DNA of 64,000 bases from Lampris incognitus (lineage: Eukaryota; Chordata; Actinopteri; Lampriformes; Lampridae), in contig NC_079224.1 of assembly GCF_029633865.1 (NCBI RefSeq), forward strand, positions 22,959,177-23,023,176. The letters are read 5' to 3'. Position numbers and translations under genes: made by a program. Shown here piece by piece: positions 31,578 to 64,000 of this stretch. Every line of letters starts with the position of its first letter. Position 1 is the first letter of the stretch. Below the pieces are notes generated by a model, which had not been told where the DNA came from, did no database searches, and saw nothing but the letters and a program-made list of their open reading frames with translations.

Positions 31578-32684
31578 ATGTCACTTTCAAAAGCCAGAAG
31601 AAAAGTTAACCAGGAGCACTGACAGTTCCAAGAGAAATGGACATGTGGCTACTTCTTCACTGAATCTAATGCGTCCAAAATTTGTTTAATTTGCAAGGGA
31701 AAAGTTGCCATCCTGACGGATTTCAATCTGAAGCAACATTACACAACTAAACATGCAGAGGAGTATGATCGGTTCAAAGGCGAGGAGAGGGAGAGAAAGG
31801 CAGCACACTTTCAAAAAAGTATGTCCTGTCAGCAAAACTTTTTTCACAAAGCCAAAAAAAAGACTGATGCAGCTGTCAAAGCTAGCTATGTGGTAAGCGA
31901 GGCTGTAGCGAAGGCTGGTAAGCCATTTATGGAGGGAAAGTTTCTGAGATACTGCATGCTGCAGGTAGCGAATATCTTTTGCCTGGAGAAGGCATCTTTA
32001 TTCGGAAACGTCAGTCTCAGCCCAAATACAATGGCAGAACGGATCAGCGAATTGTCAGGTGACATTTACAGACAGTTGTGCAATAAAGCAAATGATTTCA
32101 CGCACTATTCTTTGGCACACGATGAAAGCACAGATGTAAATGAAAATGCCCAGCTCGCTATATTTGTAAGGGGTATCAGTGACCGTTTTGAGTTAACCGA
32201 AGAATTGCTAACTTTATATCCAGTGCCGGGAAAGACTACAGCCAAAGATATATGTCAGGTGCTGTGCAATGCAATTGAGAATGCTGGTTTACCCTAGAAT
32301 AAATCGGCTGGAATAACCACTGATCATGCCCCATCAATGACAGGAAGAAAAAAATGGGCTTGTAGCACTGATTCAAAGAAAACTGGAGGAAGAGAATGTA
32401 GATCCCACAATTGCATTGCACTGTATCATTCGCCAGCAGGTACTCTGCAGCAAATGCTTGAAATTTGACAGTGTTATGACTGTTGTGGGGCGGCACGGTG
32501 GTGCAGTGGTTAGCGCAGTCACCTCACAGCAAGAAGGTCCTGAGTTCGAGCCCTGGGTCCCAGGTTGTCCTCTGTGTGGAGTTTGCATGTTCCCCCTGTG
32601 TCTGCATGGGTTTCCTCTGGGTGCTCCAGTCCAAAGACATGTAGGTCACGCAAATAAGCCATACTAAATTGCCCCTAGGTGTGA

Positions 32685-35134: not shown

Positions 35135-35989
35135 GTGAACATTTATGAGCTGTTTGCTCGAAAGACACAGGAATTTATGCACTCAGTAAAACGATCTGCA
35201 TTCGAAGGTTCAAACAATAAAATTAAAGCTACAAGAACCCTGGAAGTAATTGTGTCCTGTGATTTATACTCTTACCTGAGCAATGCATTTGGGGAAAAGC
35301 GCAGTTCCACACAGCTTTTGCAGACCTTTTACAACCGTAACCAAACTGATGGAGAAGACCTCCGTGACTACTCCCATGCACTATCCCAGATTTTGAGCTC
35401 TGTAGTGAAACAGTCCACAGATGTAATACCTAATGAGAAAACTGTGCTCAGAGACCGGTTTATTGAGGGTTTAAGAGAAGCAGCACTCAGGCGTGAACTC
35501 AGGAAAATGGTTAGGGACAAACCAGAGAGCAGTCTTCTAGATGTGAGGAACGAGGCCCTCCTGTGGGAGATGGAGGACAGCAGGTCTCATCGTCCCAGGG
35601 TCATAAAGAGCAACCAAGTTACATCAGAGGTTCCAGAAACCCAGTGCTCTACTATTAAAACAAACAATGACCAAGGTACTGCATTAAATGATGTTCGGAG
35701 AGCAGTAGCCCATCAGGAAAAACAGCTAGCAGAGTTAGGCAAAACACTCGCTGATCTAGCCTTTGCTGTAGGTGAACTGAGTAAGCGCAGCACTCAACGG
35801 ACATTCCTGGAGCCCAAGCCACGACCTAGACCCCAGCCAAAGTTCACACCAGATGGTCAGCCTATCTGTTTCAAGTGTAGAGGCATAGGTCACATTGCAA
35901 GAAAATGCCCACAGGCCAGAGGGGGTCAAGGGGACGCAACACCTAGTTCTTCTGTAGTGCAGGAAAACTCGCACCCTCAGTTGTCATGA
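35135..35989 (+). pseudogene. gag-like ORF of the LTR element, 5'-truncated
   Basis: The frame gives a capsid-like region rich in charged helices (AFGEKRSSTQLLQTFYNRNQ) and a CCHC zinc knuckle CFKCRGIGHIARKC near 35865-35910, used to bind RNA in retroelement Gag. The first ~40 codons are LTR sequence joined by a deletion, so the normal N-terminus is gone; no convincing ATG start is present. The stop TGA (35987-35989) overlaps the ATG of the next frame (ATGA at 35986). Confidence 0.75.
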
Positions 35990-44227: not shown

Positions 44228-45050
44228 CAATGTTATTGAAATGTAATAGCTGAGGGGGAATGGCCCTGCAAGTCTTTTCCACAAACAATAGAATAAGGGC
44301 ATGGATGCTGGAGAAAGGAGCCAAAGCCATTTGAAGAGACACAGACAACACACATAAATGCACAAAGGCTCGCTGACAATCTAATCCAATGTTTCACATG
44401 AAAGACTTAGCCAGGCCTCCGCTGAGTGCTAAAACAGCGCATGGCCTAATCCTATAAATCTATATGATCGCGACAGATGGAAAGTAAGTTTGCTGTCCCC
44501 CTGCTTCTGCCCCGGAGTCATGGGAAAAAAATCTCCACACCTCTCAGTCTATCCTGCTACCCAGCTTCCACGGAATTCTTTGCGGAAACTCAGTGAAGCT
44601 CAACAATAGGCGGAGAAATGGCAGCCGCAACACATGGAGTCACAAATAGATTCTGTGGGCCAGCTCCAGCCATGTACAAAAGTGGTATTTGGTTTAATTG
44701 GCCAGATATAACAAAGATTTTAATTTCCCCCGAGAGCCGTGTTGCAAACTTTTGTTTTTACACCGCACCGAAGAGAGAGAGCCGCGCTTGGTGCCAAGAA
44801 TTTACAATGCTCTTTCCCACTGGCGATATGTTTTTCCTCAGAGGCCTTCACAGATAACTCTATTGGATTAATTATGCACATGTTTGACTATCAACCCCTT
44901 TAAAGGGATCTCTTCCTCGTCTCCAGAACTTTCTTTGTCCTCGCCCTGTCTCATGGCACAGAGGACATACACTTATACAGTAGCTTTTATGCTGTCTCCC
45001 TTTCTGCCAACTCTCACTCCTTACTTTCTCTCTCTTCATTACTTTATCTG

Positions 45051-45082
<32 letters not shown>

Positions 45083-45980
45083 ACCCCCCTTCCTTTTCCC
45101 TGTCTTCCACACAGACAGGGCATTGTGTGCGGGCACAGATGAGATTTGCATGCATGTTAGGCTGGATTACACACGCAGGCTCTGGGAACCTGGACCCCTG
45201 TGGTCTCTGCTTCTATGTCGTAGGCCATGACTAGCAAGCTTTCCTTTAAGTTCACAACTTCAAACAGATTTCACAGCTTAATTGGCTGAAGAACGTACAA
45301 CATCTGAGGTTGCATTGTTTAGATATGGAGTCCAGCAGGTGTCCCTGGTGGCTCTTAGCTGGCCCAGGACATGTCCTGCGAGTCATTCCCTCTCTTCCCA
45401 TCCTGTATATCCTGTCCTTCTCACTGTCCTATCTGACAGGCTGAAAACGGACAAAATATAAGACCTGGAAAAGAAAGAACATGGAGTGGATTTTGCGAGA
45501 TGATGCAGAGCTTCTGGGTTTTCAGCTGTATCTCCTCAACATTGCAACCTGTTGTCTAATCTCTCATCTACTAGTTTTGAGATATCGTACTTTGAAAGCT
45601 GAATGTGTATGAAAAGGTTAATCCCCTAATTGATGTGTGTAATAAGTAGCTTAATCCTTGAACTGAAGATGCTGTATCTGAGCGAGTGGAGATAATAGAT
45701 AAGGGCAGCAAATCTCCTTAAAGACTATCTGTAGGACTGAAGAGCAGCGCTAGCAGTTATGAAATGTCTAAAATTTACTCTTGGAACTCACACTAAATGT
45801 AAGACCAAGACTAAAAATATTCTGGAGTTAGTTATGAGGCTTCCTACACGTACTCCCAGATAGGCGTGGGACCTTTGAGAGAACCAGAAAAATGCAACAA
45901 ATCCAATAGCATTGATTTAGGTCCTTCATAAACAGCCATCCTTACAATAATAAATCAAACGTTAATTGCCTTAACATTGC
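42200..45980. other. No gene recognised; scattered simple repeats
   Basis: Simple repeats: (CA)n at 42877-42892, (GAG)n at 43091-43110, poly-G at 44023, (CA)n at 44175-44225 and (CT)n at 45050-45082. An 80-codon ORF at 44618 has no recognisable domain. Otherwise it appears unique. Confidence 0.5.
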
Positions 45981-45984
45981 CTCC

Positions 45985-46400
45985 ACAATCTCCCACCACT
46001 CAAAGAGAAGTAACCCGGAAACAAGCCGCCTTCATGCAAGTTGCAGCATTTCGTTGATTTGTGGGTGCTATGGATGGAGCACATATCAAGATAATCGCCC
46101 GTGTGAACGAGGATGCATTTTTGAACTGCAAGCAATACCACAGCACAAATATTCACAATTGCGATGGGCGTAAATTATTTGATTATCGATATATAGTTGC
46201 CAGATGGCTTGGGTACATGACTAAAGGGTGCTTGGTAAAAGAGGTTTCGTGCTTTCGCTTGACCGCAATCATGTATCCTCCTGGACACCACTTGCTATCC
46301 CCAAAAGTCCACGAAATATGGGTGTGCAGTCACACTGCACCGAAAACCACAATAATACATCATCATCACGTCGCTTTGCAGCTCAAAGCGTCGTGAAATA
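45985..46400 (+). pseudogene. PIF/Harbinger transposase remnant
   Basis: In frames interrupted by a TGA and frame changes the translation gives REVTRKQAAFMQVAAFR, then VGAMDGAHIKIIA, NEDAFLNCKQYHS and IVARWLGY, followed by PPGHHLL in another frame. GA-DG-HI-I-AP and RK-YHS-N are signature segments of HARBI1-like nucleases. Only the middle of the catalytic domain is present and terminal repeats were not found. Confidence 0.72.
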
Positions 46401-46419
46401 CTGGTGTCATAGTTTTCTT

Positions 46420-48155
46420 AGAACAACTTTTACTCTTATGAGCGTGTGTGTGTGTGTGTGTGTGTGTGGAAGGCTTTATAACGTACTCCCTTGTCCTACT
46501 CTGAAGGCGGAGAAATTTAAATCCTAGCCATACTTTCAGCACAGTCGGTGGGACTAATTCTGCTTAATGAGGCCCACTGTATATGTCCGTAGTGTCGACT
46601 TCGTGCAACATTTGCAGACAAGTCTAAATGGTTTGATTATTTTTATGAATAACAAGTGGTCATTATTTAACAGCTTTTCCAAGTCAAAGCTGTCCCAAAT
46701 CTCCAAATTTAAGATAATTGGAAAACTGTAGTCTTGCACAAGCACATTTTTGTGAGAGGTGGGTGTCTGCATGCATGCATTAATGTGTGTTTGTAGGTAT
46801 GTGTGGGTCATGCTGCAATTGAGATATAAGCCTGCTTATCATCCATCTGGATATAGTGCATTTGTTGAAAATGAGCTGCGCTGAAGGGCCCACAAACAGA
46901 TAATAATATTTCATTTTAAGACATATCTTTGCCATTACATTTATTTATATGAGCATTAAAGTAAGTCATCAAACGCTGTCTTCTTTAAACAGCTAAACTC
47001 TGCGGTGCCTCCCAGCTCAACAGGATAATAAATGAGAGTTAGTATTGATCCTTGGCTGACCTCCTATGTGGTACTCATCATTTTATAATATCCTCCATGC
47101 TTTCTGCTAATGAGATCAATGATCTCCTGCAGATATTCCACAGATGACCTTAACACAGTCAGGGAACAAGTGTGACAAAACACATACCTCTATGCAAAAC
47201 TGGTGTAGGACAGTGGAAAAACAAAGAAAAAAACAGCACCTAATCAAGTGGGAGATGAGAATGTCATTAAATGTGTATCATCTCTCAGCAGCCTGGGTTA
47301 AATGGCTTTTGATCTGTGAGGGTTTTTTTTTTTTTGCGTTATTGCGTTTTCATGGTGAAGATGCGATCATCTTGTATAGATGGTGATGCACAGTAAGGAA
47401 TGGGAAGGCATGTCAAATGCAGTCAGAGGGGTTGCAATTTCTAATTTCCCTCCTGTTAGAAGCCAGACCAGGCTGCATCAACCCATGACTAACGTTTGGA
47501 AAATGAGGCGGTAGTTTGAATACCAATAGATTCCAATTTCATAGCACTCCTCACTTTACCTAAGAGGTGTGCTGATGTCGCTATCATCTGCAAGCTATGA
47601 AATATGGACTAATATTGCCTCACCCTGGAACAACACAGGCTGATGAGAGTATTTTCTGTCTACTTTAAGGACCTCAAAATGCCTCCGCCATCCTTGCCCC
47701 TTGCTCCCTGACTGCTGTAAAAACTCTTTACAAAGCAACACAAGATAACTAAGTATTTTCCGCTACACAAATGGGCTTCCTAATTGTCTGAATATATTTT
47801 CTTTGCTAATGCAATGGACCTCAATCACTCAGCCTAGCCTCTTTAAACTCGGTGCTCAAGCACGCGTATTTGGTTTATCAAGTTGCAGATATGAGCGCGG
47901 GGGTGGAGGGTTGGCGTGGGTGGAGGCAATTGAGTCAATGTGTCTGAGGCAATGCCAGCCACACAGAATACCAAAATAAATAAATAAATACAGGGACAAG
48001 AGCTATACCGTTGTATGACAAATACATAAGGGGCTATTTGAAAAGCAGTAGCGACCACCGCAGCCCCAGGGCCTTGGCCTCACACACACGGTTGATGATG
48101 AACTCATTTGCTGCTTGATCAACTCATTTGCTCTCCCAACCTCGAGCCGTGCTTC
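46420..48155. other. No gene recognised
   Basis: A short (GT)n at 46442-46468. The remainder is unclassified AT-rich sequence. Confidence 0.5.
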
Positions 48156-48158
48156 TTC

Positions 48159-48561
48159 TTTTTTTTTTTGCCCCAATTGCATTTGGCCAATTACCCCTCT
48201 CTTCCGAAAGGGGTAATCCGGGGAGGGCTGCAGACTACCACATGACTCCTCCGATACATGTGGTGTCGCCAGCTGTTTCTTTTCACCTGACAGGGAGGGG
48301 TTTCGTCAGGGGCACGTAGCGCGTGGGAGGATCCCGCTATCCCCCCCCCCACCTTCCCCCTCCCCCCTGACCGACCAGAGGAGGTGCTAGTGCAGCAACC
48401 AGGATACGTACCCACATCCGGCTTCCCACCCGCAGACACCAGACATGGCCAGTTGTGTCTGTAGGGACGCCCGACCAAGCCGGAGGTGACACGGGGATTT
48501 GAACCGGCGATCCCCATGTTGGTAGGCAATGGAATAGACCACTACACTACCCTGACGCCCC
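48159..48561 (-). repeat. SINE-A copy 6
   Basis: Minus-strand copy with a clear B-box (ggggatttgaaccgg in plus orientation, 48492-48506) and the head ending acgcccct. There is a small internal deletion near 48208, where the gtggagcagtgaccgg part is lost. Confidence 0.85.
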
Positions 48562-50180
48562 TAGCCAAGTTCCTGAAGCTAAATATATTTGGGATGTACA
48601 TCTTTGACTCAAGCAGCTTGCAAAAAAAAAGGGAGGGGAGGGATTGATCACAAAAAGTGATTAATATTTGTCGATACCAAATCATGAGCACGCTTCGGCT
48701 CCTCTCTGCTCTGCAACATTCACCTCACGTCTCTTGTCACCTCATTAGCAGCTTGTCCAGATATCACATTAAGTTGTGGATTCAAGCTCTTATTCATCTA
48801 TTTGTGCCTGTTCACAGGCTTAAGCCTTTGAATTAGATAATAGATCACTCTAATATCGTCGATCACAACTTTATCGTTCTTTATGACAAGCGATGCCTCT
48901 ATCTCACCCACGCACTCAGTATTCAGTAATACTCCATTTGTATTTTGGCTCCGACATACTTGGTGAAATCCAACTGTTGGATATTTACAAGGCAGCGACG
49001 CCAACAGTTAAAAAGCATATCCTTGCCCAAGCTTGCTGGGAAACAATATTCTGTAGCTAGTCCCAACCACTGACATGTATTTCACAGATCTTCTGCAACA
49101 GATAGTCTCAACAGAGGAAATGAAACCCTGAACAAATACGTTCTCGCAAAATGAAATCTCTTTATGAATGCATCTTGAGGACACATATTTCCGTGTGAAA
49201 TACGGACAGCAACCGGACATGAATTATGGAATGACGGTAGCTGGCCTGATTCCCCACCCCCACATTTTTCATCTGACTTTAACTCATCTATCATCTACGG
49301 TCCATTAACAACCATCCCCAGTCTAGCTAATACCATGGAGAAGAGAGGAGCTGTACACTCTGCCCCCCAGTTGCCAGTAAGATAATTGTTATGCATTTGC
49401 TCCAGTCAGATGATATGCCGTTTTCCTTTCCTTCCAATTACCTTTATCTTTGTCAGATGACAGATTCAATTTACCGTTAAAGGTGGCTGATTAAAAAAAA
49501 AAGAAAAAAGAAGTGAATAACACTGATGTGCCAAGTCTAAACACTTAAACTTTAACATGACCCTGGTGATACTGAATGTTATGCTGAAGAAAATATTCAA
49601 CTAAAGCTGAATATCTTTAGAAAAATAGCCTCGGGTTAACTTTTATGCACTAAAACAGGGTGGAATTCAAATTCCTTGCAAAAAAAACCCTACTTGATTC
49701 ATGCCCACCCATATTATGAAGACAGCCATAACTCAATAATCCATCATGTGATTTTTGACGCGAGACTACTCCGTTGCCAATGTAAATGAAATCCCTGTAG
49801 CAACATTACAATAATGGAAAGTAAATTATTTCGCAACTCAAGGGGATGCATAACTGCATTTAAACGACCCATTGCATTGATTATCAGCACTGGTTTGCTG
49901 GGAGAAATTCCAGTTCCTACGGTGGGAAAAAGACAAACTCATCCACCATTCGAAAGAGACAATTGTCGTCTCCGTCATCAAATGCTGTTTGTGTGCACCT
50001 TCTTAGTTTTGTACAACTTGCGCTTGTCAGGGTGAGTGACTTTCCCGGATTGTTGGCCTTTCTGGTTGTGTGTTGCCTGCATATGGAGCCCCCCCCCCCC
50101 CCCCCCCGGAGTCGGCTGAGAGAAAAAAAAAGTCCCATGTGTAATTCTGTATTCTCAGTTTAGAAATCGCACAGATTTAT
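48562..50180. other. No gene recognised
   Basis: Unclassified AT-rich sequence with A-runs and a poly-C run at 50090-50107. Confidence 0.5.
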
Positions 50181-50182
50181 AA

Positions 50183-50670
<488 letters not shown>

Positions 50671-50763
50671 TACAATAATATTCAATAACTTCACTCTTAT
50701 ACGGTGTAGCGTCCCCAAAGTCACTTCACACATCAGTGGTCTCCTGTTGGTTATACTACAACA

Positions 50764-51055
50764 CTCTTCTTTCGGCTTGTTCTCTATTTCTTAGGGGTCA
50801 CCACAGCAGATTTTATAGTTTCCATCGCTATCCTGTGAGGGCAGTGGCAGTTGTTGTTAACCCGGGTCTCAACCAATCCAGTAGTGGGCCTCGACCTATC
50901 CGGTATGGTCTTGTCAATCCGCATAATCCTTTGGCAAAGTTTTATGCCGGATGCTGTACCTGGCACAACCACTAACCCTACGGATGAGGGCATAGGTAAA
51001 GTGCTGGATGACATCCCAGTATTCATGGACTTGCGCCCATGCCTGTCGCCAAGAT
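50764..51055 (+). repeat. Unclassified interspersed repeat (ctttcggcttgttc head)
   Basis: It starts ttctttcggcttgttctc and contains aggggtcaccacagcag, then tttggcaaagttttatgccg and gatgctgtacctggcac. I recall this as a common fish repeat but cannot assign a family. It abuts the 25-bp minisatellite. Confidence 0.5.
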
Positions 51056-51214
51056 CTGCACATATATAAGGATAAATATTCTGCACATGTATAAGGATAA
51101 ATATTCTGCACATATATAAGGATAAATATTCTGCACATATATAAGGATAAATATTCTGCACATATATAAGGATAAATATTCTGCACATATATAAGAATAA
51201 ATATTCTGCACATA
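51056..51214 (+). repeat. 25-bp minisatellite, left part
   Basis: Six full units of ctgcacatatataaggataa plus atatt, then nine bases of a seventh. Units 2 and 6 carry single-base variants (catgtataagg, ataagaataa). The array continues after the first fold-back element (52412-52488) in register. Confidence 0.95.
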
Positions 51215-52411
51215 CACTACCGTTCAAAAGTTTGGGATCACCCAAACAATTTCGTGTTTTCCATGAAAAGTCACACTTATTCACCACCATATGTTGTGAA
51301 ATGAATAGAAAATAGAGTCAAGACATTGACAAGGTTAGAAATAATGATTTGTATTTGAAATAAGATTTTTTTTACATCAAACTTTGCTTTCGTCAAAGAA
51401 TCCACCATTTGCAGCAATTACAGCATTGCAGACCTTTGGCATTCTAGCTGTTAATTTGTTGAGGTAATCTGGAGAAATTGCACCCCACGCTTCCAGAAGC
51501 AGCTCCCACAAGTTGGATTGGTTGGATGGGCACTTCTTTGAGCAGATTGAGTTTCTGGAGCATCACATTTGTGGGGTCAATTAAACGCTGAAAATGGCCA
51601 GAAAAAGAGAACTTTCATCTGAAACTCGACAGTCTATTCTTGTTCTTAGAAATGAAGGCTATTCCATGCGAGAAATTGCTAAGAAATTGAAGATTTCCTA
51701 CACCGGTGTGTACTACTCCCTTCAGAGGACAGCACAAACAGGCTCTAACAGGTACTATTTAATGAAGATGCCAGTTGGGGACCTGTGAGGCGTCTGTTTC
51801 TCAAACTAGAGACTCTAATGTACTTATCTTCTTGCTCAGTTGTGCAACGCGGCCTCCCACTTCTTTTTCTACTCTGGTTAGAGCCTGTTTGTGCTGTCCT
51901 CTGAAGGGAGTAGTACACACCGGTGTAGGAAATCTTCAATTTCTTAGCAATTTCTCGCATGGAATAGCCTTCATTTCTAAGAACAAGAATAGACTGTCGA
52001 GTTTCAGATGAAAGTTCTCTTTTTCTGGCCATTTTCAGCGTTTAATTGACCCCACAAATGTGATGCTCCAGAAACTCAATCTGCTCAAAGAAGTGCCCAT
52101 CCAACCAATCCAACTTGTGGGAGCTGCTTCTGGAAGCGTGGGGTGCAATTTCTCCAGATTACTTCAACAAATTAACAGCTAGAATGCCAAAGGTCTGCAA
52201 TGCTGTAATTGCTGCAAATGGAGGATTCTTTGACGAAAGCAAAGTTTGATGTAAAAAAAATCTTATTTCAAATACAAATCATTATTTCTAACCTTGTCAA
52301 TGTCTTGACTCTATTTTCTATTCATTTCACAACATATGGTGGTGAATAAGTGTGACTTTTCATGGAAAACACAAAATTGTTTGGGTGATCCCAAACTTTT
52401 GAACGGTAGTG
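51215..52411. mobile_element. Fold-back Tc1 derivative, copy 1 (1197 bp palindrome)
   Basis: It has the same termini as the Tc1 at 22456 and TA flanks at 51213-51214 and 52412-52413. Arms of 535 bp (51215-51749 and 51877-52411) are inverted and nearly identical, with a 127-bp loop. Each arm is the Tc1 right end (equivalent to 24073 back to about 23752, including the last transposase codons) fused to the region before and at the transposase start (about 22811-23023). The join has a 3-bp microhomology (CTT). The left arm encodes transposase residues 1-51 and the right arm plus loop, on the minus strand, residues 1-93. No catalytic residue is encoded. Confidence 0.95.
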
Positions 52412-52488
52412 TATATAAGGATAAATATTCTGCACATATATAAGAATAAATATTCTGCACATATATAAGGATAAATATTCTGCACATA
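52412..52488 (+). repeat. 25-bp minisatellite, middle part
   Basis: 77 bp: the remainder of the unit interrupted by copy 1, two full units and the start of the next. It separates the two fold-back elements. Confidence 0.93.
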
Positions 52489-53685
52489 CACTACCGTTCA
52501 AAAGTTTGGGATCACCCAAACAATTTTGTGTTTTCCATGAAAAGTCACACTTATTCACCACCATATGTTGTGAAATGAATAGAAAATAGAGTCAAGACAT
52601 TGACAAGGTTAGAAATAATGATTTGTATTTGAAATAAGATTTTTTTTACATCAAACTTTGCTTTCGTCAAAGAATCCTCCATTTGCAGCAATTACAGCAT
52701 TGCAGACCTTTGGCATTCTAGCTGTTAATTTGTTGAGGTAATCTGGAGAAATTGCACCCCACGCTTCCAGAAGCAGCTCCCACACGTTGGATTGGTTGGA
52801 TGGGCACTTCTTTGAGCAGATTGAGTTTCTGGAGCATCACATTTGTGGGGTCAATTAAACGCTCAAAATGGCCAGAAAAAGAGAACTTTCATCTGAAACT
52901 CGACAGTCTATTCTTGTTCTTAGAAATGAAGGCTATTCCATGCGAGAAATTGCTAAGAAATTGAAGATTTCCTACACCGGTGTGTACTACTCCCTTCAGA
53001 GGACAGCACAAACAGGCTCTAATAGGTACTATTTAATGAAGATGCCAGTTGGGGACCTGTGAGGCGTCTGTTTCTCAAACTAGAGACTCTAATGTACTTA
53101 TCTTCTTGCTCAGTTGTGCAACACGGCCTCCCACTTCTTTTTCTACTCTGGTTAGAGCCTGTTTGTGCTGTCCTCTGAAGGGAGTAGTACACACCGGTGT
53201 AGGAAATCTTCAATTTCTTAGCAATTTCTCGCATGGAATAGCCTTCATTTCTAAGAACAAGAATAGACTGTCGAGTTTCAGATGAAAGTTCTCTTTTTCT
53301 GGCCATTTTGAGCGTTTAATTGACCCCACAAATGTGATGCTCCAGAAACTCAATCTGCTCAAAGAAGTGCCCATCCAACCAATCCAACTTGTGGGAGCTG
53401 CTTCTGGAAGCGTGGGGTGCAATTTCTCCAGATTACCTCAACAAATTAACAGCTAGAATGCCAAAGGTCTGCAATGCTGTAATTGCTGCAAATGGAGGAT
53501 TCTTTGACGAAAGCAAAATTTGATGTAAAAAAAATCTTATTTCAAATACAAATCATTATTTCTAACCTTGTCAATGTCTTGACTCTATTTTCTATTCATT
53601 TCACAACATATGGTGGTGAATAAGTGTGACTTTTCATGGAAAACACAAAATTGTTTGGGTGATCCCAAACTTTTGAATGGTAGTG
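52489..53685. mobile_element. Fold-back Tc1 derivative, copy 2 (1197 bp palindrome)
   Basis: Same length and architecture as copy 1, differing at only a handful of positions (for example aacgctcaaaatgg in place of aacgctgaaaatgg, and gaatggtag at the right end). TA flanks lie at 52487-52488 and 53686-53687. Arms are 52489-53023 and 53151-53685, with the loop between. The right flank leaves the minisatellite after a few bases, so this copy sits at the array's end. Confidence 0.95.
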
Positions 53686-53689
53686 TATA

Positions 53690-54240
53690 TTCATCTACTA
53701 CAGAGTGCACAAAGAGAGAACAAGAGAAACTACACAGCGTGAAGGTAGTATCTCTTTTCGCTTTTGCACCTTTTAGATGGTCCCTGCGCACCTGTCTCAC
53801 AGCCGGCTGGACATCCGTCCAGCTCGGAGGACGGCTCGTTTTGGTGAAAATTAGGTTGTAGCTCGTTCCTTACAACTGGTTGTGTTTTAACGAGTTGCTG
53901 ATCCTGGAAGTGTGCATCTGTGAATGAGCGCATCATGGAAGAGCACGGATTATGAATCTGAGAGCATGGTTTCTAAGCCAAGAGTACAGCTCTACACATG
54001 GGACTTTTTCCTCAGCTGACCCCAGGGGGGCTCCGTACTGTTGTGGGGGAGGGGGGACCTCTGTCTGGTTCAGTCATCAATCTGAGCACCGATCTGTATA
54101 AATTACTCATGAAAAACACGAGGGACTTCAATTGTTTTATCTAATATCCTGGTGCCAAATACATATAAAAAGGGGTAAAGCGGGAAAACCCTTGTAAATA
54201 TTTTTTGTTCTTTTTAATGACGCCCATGGGCTAAAGTTAA
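53690..54240. other. No gene recognised
   Basis: Unclassified sequence with a poly-G run near 54045. No coding signature. Confidence 0.5.
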
Positions 54241-54243
54241 TCG

Positions 54244-54446
54244 AAGCTCTTTTTAAAGGGACAGCCCACCCCAAAATCAAAGAAATACATGTTTTTCCTC
54301 TTACCCTTAGTGTTATTTATCCATCTCGGTGGTTTTGTTGGCCTTCTCTCGAACACGGTGGAGCTGGATGGCACTCGGCTTGTGTTGGTTGCTCAAAAAT
54401 GGCAAAAAAATAAATTCGGAAAAACTCAACAACGATGTCTCGTTTT
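54244..54446 (+). repeat. Unclassified fish repeat, cut by SINE-A
   Basis: It begins aaagggacagcccacccc and includes gagctggatggcactcggc. It stops at the SINE inserted at 54447. The right half was not found after the SINE, so the insertion accompanies a deletion or the repeat ends there. Confidence 0.45.
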
Positions 54447-54876
54447 GGGGGCGTCCGGATGGCGTGGCGGGCTATTCCGTTGCCTACCAACACGGGGATC
54501 ACCGGTTCGAATCCCCATGTTACCTCCTGCTTGGTCGGGGGTCCCTACAGACACAATTGGCCGTGTCTGCGGGTGGGAAGCCGGTGTCCTCGTCGCTGCA
54601 CTAGCGCCTCCTCTGGTCTGTCGGAGCACCTGTTCAGGGGGGGAGGAGGAACTGGGTGGGGGGGATAGCGTGATCCTCCCACGCGCTACGTCCCCCTGGC
54701 GAAACTCCTCACTGTCAGGCGAAAAGAAGCGGCTGGTGACTCCACATGTACTAGAGGGGGCATGTCTGCAGCCCTCCCCGGATCGGCAGAGGGGGGTGGA
54801 GCGGCGACCGGAAAGGCTCGGAAGAGTGGGGTAATTGACCAAGTACAATTGGGGAGAAAAGGGGGAGGGAAAAATA
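54447..54876 (+). repeat. SINE-A copy 7, best-preserved tRNA head
   Basis: Plus-strand, near complete. It has the head ggcgtccggatggcgtgg, the B-box ggttcgaatcc at 54504-54514 and the tail ggggagaaaaggggg. A short part of the middle (the ggatgtgggtatgt region) is missing. Confidence 0.87.
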
Positions 54877-54879
54877 GAA

Positions 54880-56270
54880 TAAATGAACAAGACCGTGTGC
54901 TGGTATGGTGTAGCTTGTTATAACGTGCAGCAGAGCAGCGCGTTTCGCTGTGGTTTGTGTCTACGCCTGACAGATGACAGCAGCTAGTAGGCCTACATCA
55001 TGGTAATTACTACTAAAGCAAGTGCAATAAAGGCGATTTTGTGACAACCATCACCTTTTGGTGATAGTCACTTAATTCGGGCACCCACAGGCAAAAACCC
55101 AAATCTGCGCCTCGCCTTCCTGCCTATGTGGCGCATCCCGCCCGCGCCTGGTCAGCGGTTCGCGTCGCGTTCGCGTAACTAAAGCGTCATCTTATCGGCC
55201 TGTCATATCGGCATTCCGGGCCGGTGCCGATATTTCATTTTAAAGCCTTCATCGGCTGATACCGATGACGTGCCGAGATCACCGTGCTTTGGAATCATAA
55301 AGTACGCTAGGAAGTAAACTTTTAACTTCGACCCCATTCTTTAATACACCGTTATCTCTTAAAATGTCAAGTACCTTGAATACGCTGATCAGGGCATGAA
55401 ACATATTGTGTCCTGAAGTCTCGGAGATTAGGATTTCCATTTCAGGGCAAAGCCGCCTGGAAAGCCAAACACTGCATGCTGAGAGTGGAAAATGTGTAAA
55501 GGTTGCTTGGTCTTATCTGCCGTTATAGGAAAAACACTGAGAGTTTCTTAAGACCATGGTCACTGGCACAAGGGAGGGGATCTGTACAGTCCCTTGATGT
55601 TTCTTTGAACCGTCGCTTCAGGCGTTCAGCTCAGATGTGCGGCACACAGCACCTCCTAGAGGAGAGGACGCGCTCCAGCAGACGACAGCCAAGCAGAGCA
55701 GAGCAGAGCAGAGCAGAGCAGTCTCACACTGATAAGATTTGATTCATGAATGTTGGCGGTCACACTTTTAGTCACTCCTCTCACAGTGACCACACAACAA
55801 CCAGAAATGAAGCAGCAATGTTTAATCTTGCTTTCGTTTGGAAACCTTTCAGTTGTACAGTCGGTGTGAAAGGATGGGTTTTAACAGTGTCAGCCTCGTC
55901 TAGAAGTTCAGTTTTGTTTTTGTTTTTGGTTTGTTTGTTTATTTTTTATATATACATCTGGTGATAAAAACACATCACCACGAAATTACAAATAAATATA
56001 AGGGCATCTGCAAACCTTTCTTCTCTTGGACCCCCTTCAACCCATCAGCCGCGCTAGCATGGAGTTTGTCAAGATCTGGGAATCTGGGACTACACTGTAA
56101 TTCAGCTAAAAACACAGTTAAAAAGCTACCACTGCCTTTCACCTTCGAAGGTACTGGTGTCCAAATTAAATCCGAGACCAATGGTGCCCCCTTGTGTAAA
56201 ACTGAAATGAACACCAGTTCGTCGTACACACACAGAGATAACGGTTCTGCAGAAAACAGCCAAAATCAAC
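54880..56270. other. No gene recognised; one short tandem repeat and a cggc-rich repeat
   Basis: A GC-rich segment at 55080-55290 (tatcggcctgtcatatcggc and relatives) looks like a known fish interspersed repeat but was not classified. A (GCAGA)n run lies at 55692-55720. Confidence 0.45.
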
Positions 56271-56274
56271 TGTG

Positions 56275-57190
56275 AAATGTTTGAGTGTGCAGGGGGCACA
56301 AAGAGGAGCTTCTGTCAGAAAAGTGGGAAGAATCTGAAGTTTGGCTGACGTTCAGGGTGCCAGGCCAACAACCTCTCCCAGAACGCCAAGGAGTTTGCTG
56401 GGGGACTTGGGAAAGACACAGGGAAAGACCCACACCCTTCTCACTGCCAGCGGGGTCCCAGTAGAGATGGTGAGCAGCTTCGGGTACATCAGAGTTCAAT
56501 TCAGTTTACTGTCATTAAAAACAATGTGCAGGCACATGTTAAAAATGAAATGAGGGATCACTGAGGACCTAGCATGGACACTACACGGACACTTTGGTGA
56601 AAAAGGCGAGGCAGCATCTTTATCACCTCAGGCAACTGATGAAGTTCAGCGTCTCCCCACAGATCCACAAAACCTTTTATTCTGATGCCACTGAGAGCAT
56701 CCTGGCAGGGTGCCTCACCGCCTGGTATGGGAACCGTACCTCTCAAGACCAAAAAACCCTGCAGAGAATGGTAGGGCTGGCTGAGCATACCACCGCGTTC
56801 ACACCCACCCTCCTACAGGACTTATACACCAGGCAGACCAGGGCTAGAAGGATTATCATGGATCCCCATCATCCAAATAACAGACTGTTTCAGGCAGACA
56901 CCTCTGCGGCCACAAGGCCAACACAGAGAGACTCAGAAGGAGTTTCTTCCCCCGGGTTATAAGGATACTTAACACAACATAACAATGAGATTTGTAATAC
57001 CACTGCCACTTTTACCACTTTACCACTTTGCCTCTGACACTTTCCAGACACTTTGCTGATTCAGTCTATTTCCACACTTGTACTTGTATTGCATAGCATC
57101 TGCACATTATATCTACTACTACTACTTTCGGCTGCTCATTATATAAATAACTGCACATTTGTATATATATATATATATATACCTTATATG

Positions 57191-57259
<69 letters not shown>

Positions 57260-57495
57260 TCTGTATAGTCCCTGGATATTTTTTTAACTGTTTTGTTTTT
57301 TATTTTACTGTGTTTCATTGTATTATTATTGTAGTCTCATTATTTTAGTCTCATTTTATTATTTTTATTATTATTGTTGTTCCATTTCTTTTGTTGCACA
57401 GTTTCGGAGTTTGCCAAAAATCATTTCACTGCTTATTGTTCTTGTGCATGAAGTATATGTGACAAATAAACCTTGAAGAAAACTTGAATCTTGAA
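56275..57495 (+). mobile_element. LINE 3' end, decayed
   Basis: The 122-codon frame at 56594 reads VKKARQHLYHLRQLMKF, TESILAGCLTAWYGN and LLQDLYTRQTRARRII, the C-terminal part of a fish LINE reverse transcriptase. A TTACC-rich and AT-rich 3' UTR follows, with (TA)n and (CA)n at 57163-57258, ending gtgacaaataaaccttgaag. A short AT-rich insert (about 56490-56555) interrupts the frame upstream. Confidence 0.78.
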
Positions 57496-57770
57496 GTTTA
57501 AGAGTGCATTATACCAATATTTGTATTCCGCACTGGTGCAGTTTCCTCTGCAGTGAATGTCGATTTTCTTTAAGTTGAAGGCTATTTCCTCCTCTTTCTT
57601 CATCGTGTATATAACCGCCGCTGTGATACACTTTGATTGGCAGCAGCTCTACCCTCCACTGTATGAGCCCTGGGTGCTCTGCACTGCCCTGGGCTCAGTC
57701 AGATGGCTGTAGGATAAAACCATCATTACCTGGGAAAAGCAACAACAACAACAACAACAACACATCATCA

Positions 57771-57998
57771 CTACAAAGATCGCCTCCCTTCGGACATGTG
57801 TGTCTGCATAAGAGTTTTTGAAGGCCGCTTGCTGGGAGCTAGCGCTTTCTCATTCTGGTCTTGTGAAAAGATGTGCTCACTAAAAACAATGTCAGCGGGT
57901 TCTAACGGAGATGGTATGTATGCAGAGACCCCTCGGGCCGGGACATGATCTCCTTCATGCCCATCATTTGACATATCTACCATTATTGGGGATAGTAG
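57771..57998 (-). CDS. Possible last exon of the MFS transporter
   Basis: After the acceptor aaactctgcag a phase-0 frame of 75 residues runs to a stop (LLSPIMVDMSND.. to MSEGRRSL). It would extend the exon at 58227-58357 as a hydrophilic cytosolic tail. Phase and order fit, but the polypyrimidine tract is weak and the residues match nothing I know. A chance frame is as likely. Confidence 0.3.
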   Translation of the reverse strand, partial: LLSPIMVDMSNDGHEGDHVPARGVSAYIPSPLEPADIVFSEHIFSQDQNEKALAPSKRPSKTLMQTHMSEGRRSL

Positions 57999-58226
57999 CT
58001 GCAGAGTTTAACATGTACCGAAAACAAATTCCAACATCCTTGGTCATGTGACTAATAAAACAATCTAATCTAATCTAACCTAATCTAATCTAAGTATCAA
58101 TTTAAGTAACAGCTATACATTTAAATACATCTTAATTTCTTCGCTTTGTTTGGTGCATTTTCGTACCTTCAATGTGCTTCTGACAACATATCCAAAACGT
58201 GTGAAATGAGTATGTGTACTACTTAC

Positions 58227-58357
58227 TGTGATCATGGCGAGAAGAGCCAGCATCACGCCCAGCATCACGTACAAGTTATTAGTCAATCCTCCAGCCCATA
58301 AAGGCCCCAGGATGGTGGCCAGACCTCCAATCGACCGTCTCACACCTTGACTGAACC
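58227..58357 (-). CDS. MFSD8-like transporter exon, last membrane helices
   Basis: Flanked by acceptor gctgaag/GG and donor ACA/gtaagt, 131 nt. It encodes GFSQGVRRSIGGLATILGPL, then WAGGLTNNLYVMLGVMLALL and AMIT: a conserved loop and two hydrophobic helices of a major-facilitator protein. The preceding exon ends in phase 1 (one G of the glycine), which this exon completes. MFS proteins move small molecules across membranes with 12 helices; MFSD8 (CLN7) is lysosomal. Substrate and location of this relative are not known from the sequence. Confidence 0.85.
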
Positions 58358-58481
58358 CTTCAGCAAGATACAGAGACACAGGTATTCGAAGGAATGCCAC
58401 GTTATGTCTTCCATCTACTTTCATTTACTCTTTTTCTCACTCTCGAATCCACAAACATTGAGAAAGGTGAGGTGAACTCAC

Positions 58482-58604
58482 CCTGTGTTTTCTCTGCTGT
58501 GACTTTGGAGAACAGGGACACCTGAGACACGGCCACGAAGGGAAGCCCCAGCAGCTGCAGGAACACCCCAGTAATGAATGCTATCATCTCCCACCTATAG
58601 CCAC
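58482..58604 (-). CDS. MFSD8-like transporter exon
   Basis: Acceptor ctcccccag/GT and donor CAGG/gtgagt, 123 nt, phase 1 to phase 1. It encodes YRWEMIAFITGVFLQLLGLP, then FVAVSQVSLFSKVTAEKTQ: a membrane helix and the loop after it. The join to the downstream exon gives KTQGFSQGVRR, a sensible continuous loop. Together with its neighbours it forms the C-terminal half of an MFS protein. Confidence 0.87.
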
Positions 58605-58700
58605 CTGGGGGAGTTGGAAAAGTTACATTTAGAATGTAATCTGTAACATATAATTACCAGTTACTTATCAAAAATTCTGGTTGGTATTACAATGCATCTG

Positions 58701-58986
58701 CCCCCCCCCTTTTTTTTTCTCCCAAATTGCGCCTGGCCAATTACCCCACTCTTCCGAGCCATAACAGTCGGCGCTCCACCCCCTCTGCCGATCCGGGGAG
58801 GGCTGCAGACTACCACGTCTCCTCCAATACATGTGGAGTCGCCAGCTGCTTCTTTTCACCTGACAGTGAGGAGTTTCGCCAGGGTGACATAGCGCGTGGG
58901 AGTATCACGCTATCCCCCCCCCCCCCCCCGAACAGGCGCCCCGACCGACCAAAGGAGGCGCTAGTGCCACGCTACCTGGACGCCCC
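58701..58986 (-). repeat. SINE-A copy 8, internally deleted
   Basis: The tail and body are present and the sequence then jumps from ggcgctagtg to the extreme head (ctacctggacgcccct), losing the tRNA-like B-box part. It lies in the transporter intron. Confidence 0.8.
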
Positions 58987-59671
58987 TCAACGCAGCTGTC
59001 TGACTGCATTTAGCCATGTAATTGGGTTACTTTAAGCTAGTTCGGGATTAATTTAGCTTTGTATTGAAAATAAAGCAAAACGGGAACATTTTCCATTGCA
59101 TACTCCAGTATGCAGTGCAATTTAAAAACCTTTTCTATCAACATCTACCCTAATTTTATGCCCTTAATTTGAGTGTGTATACAATCTCTCACTGTTGTGA
59201 TGTAATTGTACCTTTCATATGTGTTTCTGAGTAGTCCAAAAAATAAACTTCTGTTTTTCTTACACAGGTAACTGGAAACCTATTGTGTTTTGTTTTGTTT
59301 TGTTTTTCCCAGTAACTGTCACAGCCACATGATAAGTTTACTACAAACCTTTTCCATTGTATTCAGTTACTGCCCTATCCTGCCCCCGTGGAAAGGAACA
59401 ACTATTCAACGCTCTATTTGCAGCACCTGCCAGCCGGAACCATGATGTTAAATGTAACAAGCAGACACCCCGGGGCCAATGTGTGCATGAGATCGTATTT
59501 GTGTGAATGGTGTCCTGCTGGCCTGTCGATGCTGAATGACACTTTAAGGAGCACACCTGGTTCACCCAAAGCTCAGCCCGACGTGACTCTGCTGTTTCAC
59601 ACCGACACATGCCAGTCAGTCCCCCCACAAGACTCAGCTTCTCTTAGTGCCAGACAAAGGCTTGGACTGAC

Positions 59672-59773
<102 letters not shown>

Positions 59774-59813
59774 CAGGTTTTTCTATCCTAAACATTTTTT
59801 TACATGTTTTTAA

Positions 59814-61515
59814 TTGCTTAGCACAATTATTAACTGCTCTCTTCAGGCAGATGCATTTCCTGCAGCGCTTAAGACAGCTGTCATTAAACCACTTCTGAAG
59901 AAGAGCAACCTTGATGTGACAGCCATTGCCTGTTGGCAATGGCTGTTGACAATGACGACAGGCCCATCTCCAACTTATCGTTCCTCAGCAAAATACTTGA
60001 AAAAACAGGTTATTCTCAAGTTAATAACTATTTAATATCTAACAACCTTCTAGCCATTTATCAGTCAGGTTTTTGATCTCACCATAGCACAGAAACAGCA
60101 CTTATCAAAGTTATGAACGATCTGCATGTGAACACAGATTCTAAAAAAATATCTGTTCTTGCTCCTGGATCTCAGCGCCGCCTTCAACACTGTTGATCAT
60201 GATATTTTGCCAGAGAGAGTAGAAAAATGGGTTGGCCTCTCTGGCCTGGTTCTCAACTGGTTTAGAACATACCTTCAGGACAGGCAGTTCTTTGTGTCTA
60301 TTGGAGACTTTTTCTCAGACAAAGTGGGTATAATGTGTGGGGTACCCCAAGGGTCTATTCTTGGACCATTACTATTTAATCTCTACATGCCTCCTACTCA
60401 CACATGTTAAACAGAAACACAAAATAAATTACCATAATTATGCAGATGATTCGCAACTCTATATATCCCTATCTCCCGGTGACATAGCTCCCATACATTC
60501 CCTAACCCAGGTTATTGATGATATTAATCTATGAATATCAGAGAACTTTTTACAATTGAACAAAGACAAGACAGAAATACTTATTTTTGGTGCAAAGACT
60601 CAGACAGAATTGCAGCTCATCTCAGCTCTCTGTCTCTGGAGTGTAAAAGTGAAGCTAGAAATCTCAGTCTAATCATAGACAGTGATCTAAATTTTAAGAG
60701 CCACATCAATCATCACACAAGATCAGCCTTCTACCATCTTATAAAATGTTCGAAACTAAGGGGCTTTCTATCAAAATTGGACTGTCAGAAATGAATCCAT
60801 GCATTTATAACAAGTAGACTAGAGTCTAGTCTACTTGTTATAAATGCATGGATAGTCTAGTCACTAGACTACTGTAATGGACTATTCACCAGCCTCCCAA
60901 AATCAGTTGTGCACCATCTACAGTTAATTCAAAACGCGGCAGCTTGTGTTCTCACAGGAACTAAAAAGTATGAACACATTACACCTGTTCTTAGAGCTCC
61001 GCATTGGCTCCCCGTCAAAACTAGAACCAATTTTAAAATTCTGTTACTTGTATACAAAGCGCTAAATGGCCTTGCAGCACACTATACAAAAGACATGTTA
61101 ATTCCTTATAAACCAGCAAGAATGCTCAGGTCCAATGGCAGTGTTCTTTTAACCATCCCTCATGCTAGGTCTAGAACAGGGGAAGCTGCATTTTGTATTT
61201 ACGCCCCAAGTAGATGGAACGCCCTGTCTGAGGACCTGAAAGAGGCCCCCACTTTGGACACATTTAAAAGTGGGCTAAAAACATTACTTTTCAAAACAGC
61301 CTACAGCTAAGTTTTTGGTGTGTGTCTGTGTGTTTTGTATATTTTGATATTTGTATATTCTTCACTAACACCTGCTGATATGCATATTTATTTTCTGTAT
61401 TTGCACTTTTATGGCTGAGTTGCAATTGTATTGTCATTTTATGTAAAGCACATTGTGTTGCCCTGTGTATGAAATGTGCTATATAAATAAAGTTTGACTT
61501 GACTTGACTTGACTT
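59814..61515 (+). mobile_element. LINE in the transporter intron, opposite orientation
   Basis: Pieces in order are FPAALKTAVIKPLLKKSNLD (59845), ALLDLSAAFNTVDHDILPER (60160), GVPQGSILGPLLFNLYMP (60340) and YADDSQLYISLSPGD (60435). SEARNLSLIIDSDLNFKSHI follows (60650), then LQLIQNAAACVLTGTKKYEH and ITPVLRAPHWLPVKTRTNFK (60915-61030). The end is aaataaagtttgacttgact with a (TGACT)-type tail. The ADD box is intact; stops and frameshifts show it is inactive. A 55-bp palindrome lies at 60797-60851. Confidence 0.83.
60797..60851. repeat. Perfect 25-bp inverted repeat with 5-bp loop inside the LINE
   Basis: The left arm begins ccatgcatttataacaagta (60797-60821), the loop is gagtc and the right arm (60827-60851) is the exact reverse complement. 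It lies where the LINE should encode a single copy of IHAFITSRL-type residues, so it is an inverted duplication of LINE sequence. Confidence 0.95.
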
Positions 61516-61599
61516 GACATTTGGTCCCTATTATGATAGGAAAACCTGAAACAACCTACCTTGTGTGGACATTTTATGGGTCCCATGAGAAAAATAGTC

Positions 61600-61712
61600 T
61601 ATTCTAGGGTTAGGACTTAGTTTTAGGGTTAAGTTTAGAATCAGGATTAGGTTAAGGTTAGGGTAAGAGTTAAGGTTAGACATGTAGTTATGATGGTTAA
61701 GGCTAGGGTTAA
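61600..61712. repeat. Degenerate TTAGGG-like repeat
   Basis: Repeated (a)gggttaag and gttaggg units of irregular spacing (agggttaggac, ttttagggttaag, aaggttagggtaag, ggctagggttaag). They are too imperfect to be a recent telomere insertion. Confidence 0.6.
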
Positions 61713-61766
61713 GGGCTTGGGAATCAATGTAGTCAATGAGGTGTCTCCACAAGTACAGGGTGACAT

Positions 61767-61767
<1 letters not shown>

Positions 61768-61828
<61 letters not shown>
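61768..61828 (+). repeat. (GT)n microsatellite near the transporter donor site
   Basis: About 60 bp. On the gene's strand it is a CA repeat beginning about 30 bp after the 5' splice site of the exon at 61860-62073. Confidence 0.97.
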
Positions 61829-61830
<2 letters not shown>

Positions 61831-61859
61831 TGAGCACGACCACATACATAATGTCTTAC

Positions 61860-62073
61860 CTTGGGGGTTGGTGAGGAAGATAAGGCACCAGATACAGGCA
61901 GTGCAGCAAATGACCAGGCCCACGGCTAGCACAGCGCGGTCCGCCACCTTCCTACTCAGCCAGCGCACAAAGAAGAAGCCCAGGATGACCTCCACGCCAC
62001 ACAGGCTGTACATCAGGCTGTTCCCTAGTTCGCCAAAGCTGAAGTAGCGCTGCGTCAGAGGGGTCACCATGGT
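61860..62073 (-). CDS. MFSD8-like transporter exon with two membrane helices
   Basis: Acceptor cttccaccag/ACC and donor CAAG/gtaaga, 214 nt, phase 0 to phase 1. It begins TMVTPLTQRYFSFGELGNSL, then MYSLCGVEVILGFFFVRWLS (helix), RKVADR, AVLAVGLVICCTACIWCLIF (helix) and LTNPQ. The V-TPLT and short basic loop between helices are what MFSD8-like proteins show in their second half. It joins the next exon at a split glycine codon. Assignment to the MFSD8-like group is from memory of the family; a specific fish paralogue is not claimed. Confidence 0.88.
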
Positions 62074-62932
62074 CTGGTGGAAGGGGTTGTGGTGAGATAA
62101 TTTGTCAGTTAGATCACCGAGTCAGTTTCCGTAATCTTGGGGTGAGGAAGAATGCGCCAGATATGGGTGCCTTTCAATCATTATACGATTTAAGGGGTTC
62201 AGATCATTGGTAATCAATGTATAATTTAAAAAAACAGTGAAGTCTTTTAATATTCTTTTCTTTTCTTTTTTTTACAAACCAGATCTGTTACATGGCTGCT
62301 GAGTCACTGCACCACAACTTTATCTCCCTAAGAATGAAATGAGATGTTTGGTCTACCAGCTTCAAATTGAATAGATGTGGTCTCCTACAATATTTCTAAA
62401 GGTTGCATTTAATAAAACAAAACAAGAGATGATTTCATTTGTCCGAAGGGAAATCATCACATTGATTTGTTCTTTTCCTTAAAATGAGGCAAAGTAAGTC
62501 ACTCCCCTAAGGTAATACCACTTGATAGTAGAAAAATCTTGAAACAGACTTCTGACTTCTCAGTCCAACAACTGAGATGTTTTCTTACATATTTTTGCAG
62601 TTTGTTGTGCTTATCTGACCAAAAAAAAAAGGCGGGGGGTTTAAGACTCAATACAAGACAAAAAGAGATTATAAGGTGGACATTTGTTGCAGAGCACAGT
62701 CTGAAGAATGAAACGGTGTTAATCACAGATGGGGTGCGATTTAAGGTGACTATTGTGTGTTTCTCATGCTGTTATTTCACTTCTGGCATTGACAAATATA
62801 TGTACTTTTGCGTGTCTCCTCAAGGTCGAGTTCAACTCGACACAGTGTACAAAACTCAGGGCGCGTTGTGTGACGTTGTGTGAAATGTTTGGGAGCTCGG
62901 GCTTGATGGATCTCTATGGAAGCTGCACCCAC

Positions 62933-63006
62933 CTCCAGCGCCGTCTGGTTGAAGAGAGTGATGAACTGAGCCGTGAGGAGAACCACCACCTCCTCCCTCA
63001 GGAACT
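62933..63006 (-). CDS. MFSD8-like transporter exon, start of second half
   Basis: Acceptor cccctctgcag/AG and donor GAG/gtgggt, 74 nt. After two bases completing a glutamate codon it encodes FLREEVVVLLTAQFITLFNQ and TALE, one hydrophobic helix, and joins the next exon in phase 0 as TALE/TMVTPL. Exons for the N-terminal half lie right of the window or in large introns; none was recognised in 63.0-64.0 kb. Confidence 0.82.
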
Positions 63007-63567
63007 CTGCAGAGGGGAGGAGGTGCAAGACAGAGAGAGAAGGAGGGGTGGGAGGGAGTCAGCTGAGACATATGGATGTTTTCCAGGTTTCAAAAACGCT
63101 AAATCATACAGGTATTGCTTGTTTTGTTTCTGCCTGAGAACCTCGGCCACAATGAAAAAGGCACCGTTGAAGTGAAATGAAGGCTGCAGCCAGCTTCAAG
63201 GGTTCTTCCCCCTCCAGAAAGAATCTGGCAGGATCAATAATGCAGAGGTGAGAACATCTCGGCCTTACATGCAACCCTACATAGTGGAGCTTCACAGTGT
63301 TTTGAGTTAAGCTCCAGTTTTCCCCCAGTCCCCGCTTTTCTGACTCTCCCTCAAAAATGGAGAAGAATCAATGAAACGAATGTTGTTGACCATATTATAA
63401 ATTCTGTTTCTAAAAAAAAAAAAGATAAAAAATTTCTAAAAAAAAAAAACCCAACCAACCACAGCAGAGTCAATAAGAGGGAAGTCTGTGATCCATCCCT
63501 CTGCCACATCTTCAAAGAGTGGGAGAATCAATAAGAAGGCTGCACACACATACAGAGAGATGAGCTA

Positions 63568-63850
63568 GAGACAGACAGACAGACAGACAGGCAGACAGAC
63601 AGGCAGACGGGCAGACAGACAGACGGAAATGCAGACAGACAGGTGGATGACAGATGGAGAGACAAACAGGTGAACAGGCAGACAGACAGGCAGACGGGCA
63701 GATGGACGTACAGATAGACAGGTGGATGGACAGACAGACAGACGGGCAGGCAGGCAGACGGGCAGAGAGACAGGTAGACAGACAGACAGGTTGACAAACA
63801 AACAGACAGACGGACGGATGGACGAACAGATAGACAGACAGACAGAGAAA
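63568..63850 (+). repeat. (GACA/GGCA)n tetranucleotide region
   Basis: About 280 bp built from cagacagacaggcagac-type units with point variants. On the minus strand it translates as CLSVCLS, which is an artefact. Confidence 0.93.
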
Positions 63851-63979
63851 CAGAGATGAGAGAGAACATTTGCTGAGGGGGGAGGATAGCAGGAGGTGCC
63901 GAAATGCTCGATCAATAGCAGCCTGCAAATCACCATTTGCACCACATGTAAACTTCACACTAATTCAGTTGGACAAGAA

Positions 63980-64000
63980 GTGTGTGTGTGTGTGTGTGTG
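63980..64000 (+). repeat. (GT)n microsatellite running off the window
   Basis: The GT tract starts near 63980 and is cut by the window end. Confidence 0.95.

Follow-up and report, generated by a model that had tools for sequence, protein, structure and literature searches.

Palindromic transposons are known, but usually without a parent or a history. Tc6 of C. elegans is palindromic and TA-flanked with Tc1-related termini, the arms of Drosophila FB elements are built of internal short tandem repeats, and MITEs are by convention short, usually under about 600 bp. By anatomy, the closest precedent for the elements described here is Mu killer of maize, whose two ends both derive from one MuDR end according to the sections of its description drawn on here (PMC3440606). 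Within the Tc1-type Bari family, short- and long-TIR versions are found, for which decay from long to short has been proposed (excerpts of PMC4877112). In vitro, Mos1 with two right ends transposed 26-fold better than the natural arrangement (PMC4505599, in part). Intruder (DD38E/IT) elements, in the portions of the paper used, are 1.5-1.7 kb long, with transposases of 341-379 aa, short or long TIRs and a GRPR motif (PMC7731502); neither 'palindrom' nor 'MITE' appears in the main text of that paper. Among the matches listed from the open-access literature, no title or abstract opening describes a palindromic Tc1 family in fish.

We analyzed a 64,000-nucleotide stretch of Lampris incognitus DNA (the window), which lies on the contig labelled C17 of a 1.48-Gb assembly in 537 contigs. 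Two neighboring palindromes, E1 and E2 (Table 1), very probably belong to a non-autonomous palindromic family, recently amplified in one burst and mobilized in trans, that derives from a DD38E (Intruder-type) Tc1/mariner element. A sequence-only reading of the window had described two 1197-bp palindromes, about 1% apart, with 535-bp inverted arms around 127-bp loops, and these dimensions were confirmed; E1 and E2 differ at 10 of 1197 positions (0.84%). Arm-versus-arm mismatches number 3/535 in E1 and 4/535 in E2, whose fourth mismatch falls on the final base of the arm. The arms make up 1070 of the 1197 bp of each element, a proportion typical of Foldback-type elements, and the FB-like internal tandem repeats that were also looked for did not appear: the only direct repeats of at least 20 bp in 50800-54200 were the outside 25-bp array and the E1 and E2 copies themselves.

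Table 1. Positions of the elements, their parts and associated features in the window.
Feature	Position	Strand	Remark
Full-length parent element	22456-24073	+	1618 bp; 27-bp TIRs; TA flanks
Parent transposase	22868-23911	+	347 aa; D154/D244/E283 (DD38E); HTH_Tnp_Tc3_2 and DDE_3 domains
25-bp tandem array receiving E1	51055-51214		continues at 52412-52488 between E1 and E2
E1, palindromic element	51215-52411	+	1197 bp
E1 left arm	51215-51749	+	reverse complement of parent right end, then parent 22806-~23022
E1 CTT microhomology	51536-51538	+	right-end/transposase-start join; mirror copy at 52088-52090; position read off the letters
E1 loop	51750-51876	+	127 bp; reverse complement of parent ~23024-23149
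E1 right arm	51877-52411	+	
64-aa frame	51594-51788 (E1)	+	N-terminal HTH of transposase; same length in E2 (52868-53062)
95-aa frame	51745-52032 (E1)	-	N-terminal HTH, GRPR motif onward; E2 (53019-53306) reads GRPC
E2, palindromic element	52489-53685	+	1197 bp
E2 left arm	52489-53023	+	last base mismatched to right arm
E2 loop	53024-53150	+	127 bp
E2 right arm	53151-53685	+	
TA target duplications, E1	51213-51214; 52412-52413		
TA target duplications, E2	52487-52488; 53686-53687		
Dispersed repeat copies	957-1381; 2377-2779; 9295-9721; 19965-20361; 48216-48561; 54464-54875; 58714-58981		

The same reading had proposed that the right end of a Tc1 element was fused through CTT to the start of the transposase, and alignment to the parent bears this out. 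Each arm follows the reverse complement of the parent from 24073 to about 23750, passes through a 3-bp CTT overlap common to both sources, and then runs from 22806 to about 23022, the second part holding the transposase start. The right half of the palindrome continues through parent 23149, which makes the loop parent ~23024-23149 reversed; one base at the centre joint matches neither source. On either side, E1 and E2 terminate in the right end of the parent Tc1-type element, and both palindromes have TA flanks on both sides.

The complete parent that had been placed at 22.46 kb was recovered with an intact 347-aa frame, and its 27-bp TIRs are identical at both ends, with divergence from base 28 on. 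It has the hallmarks of the Tc1/mariner superfamily, namely an HTH plus DDE/D transposase (PF01498, 3.2e-17; PF13358, 1.5e-11), TA target duplication and short TIRs. The family name 'Tc1' given earlier holds at this level only: strict DD34E/Tc1 membership was rejected, as 38 residues, not 34, separate the second D from the E, the catalytic spacing of Intruder DD38E/IT. With this spacing, a GRPR motif, a length of 1.6 kb, a 347-aa product, short TIRs and a TA target, the parent resembles Intruder as described in part of PMC7731502, and assignment to the Intruder (DD38E) type is the best reading of its sequence. Of 10 parent loci with flanks listed, among them the window parent, 9 have a TA on both sides; the other, L038, is missing 3 bases at its end. 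The 347-aa frame is present in 9/10 further parent loci, one of these nine being without the right end. The best protein match of the transposase is 98% identical, and named matches include Serrasalmus rhombeus (94% over 97%), Astyanax mexicanus (88%) and Oncorhynchus mykiss (86%). The parasitic nematode Cylicocyclus nassatus also has a record that matches this fish-type transposase at 88% identity, which may reflect horizontal transfer or contamination.

To estimate family size, we counted junctions across the assembly. A 24-mer over the CTT junction, with at most one mismatch, occurs at 5,714 + 5,706 = 11,420 places, against 0 + 0 for the reversed control, which excludes chance for this junction, and the centre junction occurs at 2,931 + 2,906 = 5,837 places (control, 0 + 0). 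By arithmetic the two counts correspond to ~5,700 to 5,840 palindromes, ~7 Mb or 0.47% of the assembly, a figure that tolerates one mismatch at most and misses older copies. The sequence-only reading had named a lack of other copies as evidence against itself, and that outcome is excluded by these thousands. Exact right ends number 6,941 + 6,888. The parent's undeleted right breakpoint was found 3,076 times (forms with two right ends, described below, included) and its intact left breakpoint 2,983 times, which puts the undeleted parent at ~3,000 copies, outnumbered by the palindromes. The palindrome junction had 0 matches in the viral contigs searched.

Individual copies were compared in a sample of 57 palindromes, a biased one, made up of 24 from a search that skips common words (cut from the 46 matches of an arm query) and 33 from exact junction matches at the start of C1. 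The 33 were drawn from 50 loci, L042-L091, in which some elements are repeated; L058, L066, L074 and L087, having no long palindrome match, were excluded. One of the first 24 is missing 100 bases at its start, beside N. In 57/57 palindromes the two arm junctions and the centre junction are present within 2 mismatches, and 90 of the 100 junction places listed on C1 fall into plus/minus pairs, with 42/45 pairs spaced at exactly 547 bp. Palindromes are hard to assemble, and one of the 57 borders a run of N, so we considered whether they are assembly artefacts or the product of repeated de novo folding of parents. This is scarcely credible: the sampled palindromes have the same junctions, yet different flanks and substitutions, and independent folding would not reuse the same breakpoints.

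With no full transposase, TIRs in common with a parent in the same genome and multiplied copies, the palindrome qualifies as a MITE or non-autonomous element in the broad sense, where the parent's autonomy is taken from its intact frame; at 1197 bp it exceeds the narrow MITE size. Like MITEs, including those related to Bari (PMC4877112, in part), it is TIR-bounded, multiplied and kin to an autonomous parent. Unlike them, it is nearly all arm, both of its ends come from one parental end, and its long identical ends arose from a short-TIR parent.

The claim that the palindromic form itself had moved is supported by the thousands of copies, their TA flanks and, in the sample, mostly unrelated flanking sequence. 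A TA was found on both sides of 53/57 palindromes. Of the four misses, one has N on one side, two have one altered flank, and one was read two bases off; this last copy, among the 33, was matched from base 3 and is counted as a miss though a TA adjoins it. This count loses some weight because 20/57 palindromes adjoin (TA)n runs, where a TA on either side is to be expected anyway. At the 53 sites the preferred target is AYA-TA-TRT; 96% of them have A at -3 and 92% have T at +4. Comparison of 150-bp flanks found many shared 25-mers only for a trio on C12 and for E1/E2, and four other pairs shared 1 to 9. Two sets of three palindromes are identical over 1197 bp and occupy different sites. Transposase from intact relatives would be the agent mobilizing the palindrome in trans.

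Some loci depart from simple dispersal. The C12 trio (31854029, 31859344 and 31864659) consists of palindromes 5,315 bp apart, neighbors having 126 flanking 25-mers in common, and is probably a larger tandem or segmental duplication carrying the element. At L031 a parent and a palindrome lie ~9 bp apart, and at L038 several parent and palindrome pieces are adjacent; these may be insertion hot spots in TA-rich stretches.

Within the 25-bp repeat, E1 and E2 are inserted at the same TA. When the flanks of E1 are joined the array is restored, and when those of E2 are joined it is restored up to its right edge. The pair could represent one insertion, tandemly duplicated with three 25-bp units, as the 1274-bp tandem unit, the shared TA and the same loop orientation would suggest. 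We rejected this possibility as quite unlikely. E1 and E2 are 0.84% apart, a difference equalled or exceeded by 13% of pairs among the 57 palindromes, and their nearest relatives among the 56 other sampled palindromes are separate, a copy on C6 for E1 (0.17%) and copies on C16 and C1 for E2 (0.50%). No departure from the consensus is common to both, and the TA that both use is the preferred target motif. From these comparisons, E1 and E2 are most likely independent insertions at the same preferred TA, not sisters. Under uniform insertion, ~30 pairs within 1.3 kb are expected genome-wide.

To place the amplification in time, we examined divergence among copies. The 57 sampled palindromes have a mean pairwise difference of 0.58%, and the 33 from C1 differ by 0.54% on average from each other and by 0.28% from their consensus. 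Substitutions per palindrome among the 33 have a mean of 3.3 and a variance of 2.3, a near-Poisson spread that points to a star-like burst. At substitution rates of 3e-9 to 1e-8 per site per year, the palindrome burst dates to ~0.3-0.9 million years. The mean difference among eleven parents, picked for their match to E1, is 0.56%. Their consensus departs from that of the palindromes only at arm sites 39 and 376 and at a single centre-joint base; judged by these sequences, parent and palindrome appear to be of similar age. Four substitutions are common to 7/24 of the first-sampled palindromes, a subfamily that contains both sets of identical copies.

The two arm sites also bear on exchange between copies. 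At sites 39 and 376 all four left/right arm combinations occur among the 57 palindromes, a pattern that probably reflects sequence exchange between arms or between copies. Because site 376 (G/C) is variable in parents as well as palindromes, the exchange has no one evident partner. Gene conversion that keeps the arms of an element alike was unsupported, the within-element difference (0.556%) being close to that between elements (0.560%; n = 33).

One of the loci without a long palindrome match, L074, holds a third form. It begins with the reverse complement of the right end, has the same CTT junction, and continues as the parent from position 351 onward, with a 347-aa frame; the right-end 29-mer bounds it on both sides (C1:8323890 and 8325447), for a length of 1586 bp. 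We refer to this arrangement as R-R. Two further candidates, placed by coordinates as are all R-R copies beyond L074, have the same 939-bp spacing from the junction to the undeleted right breakpoint. Gene-bearing R-R elements are less common than L-R parents, at 3/32 listed parent places below C1:16.38 Mb (95% interval 2-25%). Of 98 parent right breakpoints on C1 below ~39.6 Mb (2 of the 100 listed lie beyond the left-breakpoint list and were excluded), 88 are 820-960 bp from a left breakpoint and 10 have none at that distance; 5 such right-breakpoint-only places fall within the range of the junction list, and 3 of these are R-R. Conversely, 12/100 left breakpoints are without the right one, which indicates that other forms exist. 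Deriving the R-R number from the counts failed, as doubling the centre count gives 11,674, more than the 11,420 junctions counted, presumably through mismatches. The palindromic and R-R forms are derivatives beyond what the portions of PMC7731502 drawn on here describe for Intruder.

Because both palindrome arms carry the same junction, the junction would have come first, and by sequence the R-R form is the simplest precursor of the palindrome. It could instead be a later recombinant of parent and palindrome: recombination within the 217 bp common to the two would yield exactly the R-R product, and the variation of site 376 in both also leaves room for this origin. With the R-R form as precursor, an inverted right-end copy would first have taken the place of the left end (parent 1-350) by way of the 3-bp CTT microhomology, in a product that can keep the whole transposase gene. 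Next, a fold-back (template-switch) event within this junction-bearing form would have added an inverted copy of its first ~535 bp, with parent ~569-694 remaining as the loop. Transposase made by intact relatives would recognize the two identical right ends and move the element by cut-and-paste into A(T/C)A-TA-T(A/G)T sites, after which copies would have risen to >5,000 in one star-like burst. We infer the order of these steps, the repair mechanism and any advantage of two right ends. A short-TIR element seems here to have acquired long identical ends in a single step.

The use of two copies of one end is a likeness to the laboratory Mos1 construct, engineered there and natural here (PMC4505599, in part). 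Since gene-bearing R-R elements are rare, the excess of palindromes over parents is not accounted for by two right ends alone. Their success would require something more, such as shorter length, a fold that unites the ends, or luck at the start of the burst.

The shape of the palindrome raises the question of its effect on the parent. Read-through transcripts of palindromes in or near genes would give 535-bp double-stranded RNA, and small RNAs made from it could repress the parent, as proposed for Mu killer. The predicted fold of E1 RNA is one long hairpin (-1025.1 kcal/mol), and the arms cover both ends of the transposase gene, with the first ~155 and last ~162 coding bases. E1 and E2 also have the anatomy of Mu killer, with both terminal repeats from one element end and an inverted duplication of transposase sequence, as given in the relevant sections of PMC3440606. 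That precedent is one Mutator-element locus in a plant, compared with a Tc1-type family of >5,000 copies here, and antisense transcripts that start inside Mu killer are said to disprove read-through, leaving a hairpin contribution possible (PMC3440606, in part). Moreover, the burst took place with palindromes present: diversity is similar in the 11 parents (0.56%) and the 33 palindromes (0.54%), so the palindrome did not stop it, and silencing could be a by-product rather than a cause of spread. On the folding model, silencing of the parent by hairpin RNA is possible, but a hairpin-RNA silencer is an unlikely explanation for the family.

The encoded fragments offer a different kind of repression. 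The P-element KP is a truncated repressor, and there are comparable cases in other DNA transposons. Similarly, the two N-terminal DNA-binding fragments of 64 and 95 aa, read from opposite strands, could act as dominant negatives by occupying transposon ends or poisoning the transposase. Each of the two frames scores above the cut-off of the HTH model PF13936, and 46/57 palindromes keep both. At 0.28% divergence, however, most frames would survive without selection, and the palindromes spread instead of being suppressed, which makes a dominant-negative role very unlikely. In a further scenario, which we regard as doubtful, the palindrome was favored by two preferred right ends united by its fold and at the same time seeded double-stranded RNA against the transposase, giving a self-limiting burst. 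If true, the most successful form of the element would also shut the family down.

In this genome, unlike in Tc6 and Foldback-type elements, the parent, both junctions and an R-R relative occur together: a parent that appears intact, an R-R element whose transposase frame is intact and >5,000 low-divergence palindromes are linked by one junction. The system allows a direct test of how a short-TIR element gains long identical ends, and of two copies of one end against the natural pair in nature, as was done for Mos1 in vitro. It also allows a test of the vertebrate response, by small RNAs or editing, to thousands of insertions able to give 535-bp double-stranded RNA, and forms a natural test of the spread of a hairpin-shaped transposon and its possible silencing of the parent.

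The window contains other repeats and probable coding sequence. A dispersed repeat of ~300-400 bp is present in both orientations, its copies (Table 1) ~79-88% alike, with no match to the Tc1 elements in the same comparison. A bacterial-code tRNA scan of 45000-64000 gave 0 predictions. Three open frames resemble, by eye, other mobile elements: an LTR-retroelement gag/polymerase (35135-38131, +), a LINE-type reverse transcriptase (30161-31143, -) and a hAT-type transposase (31821-32297, +). Near the ends of the window are two probable host-gene exons, one at 61534-62070 (-) with a major-facilitator match below the cut-off (19.7 of 33.4 bits) and one at 116-688 (+) matching protein tyrosine kinase (PF07714, 2.5e-21).
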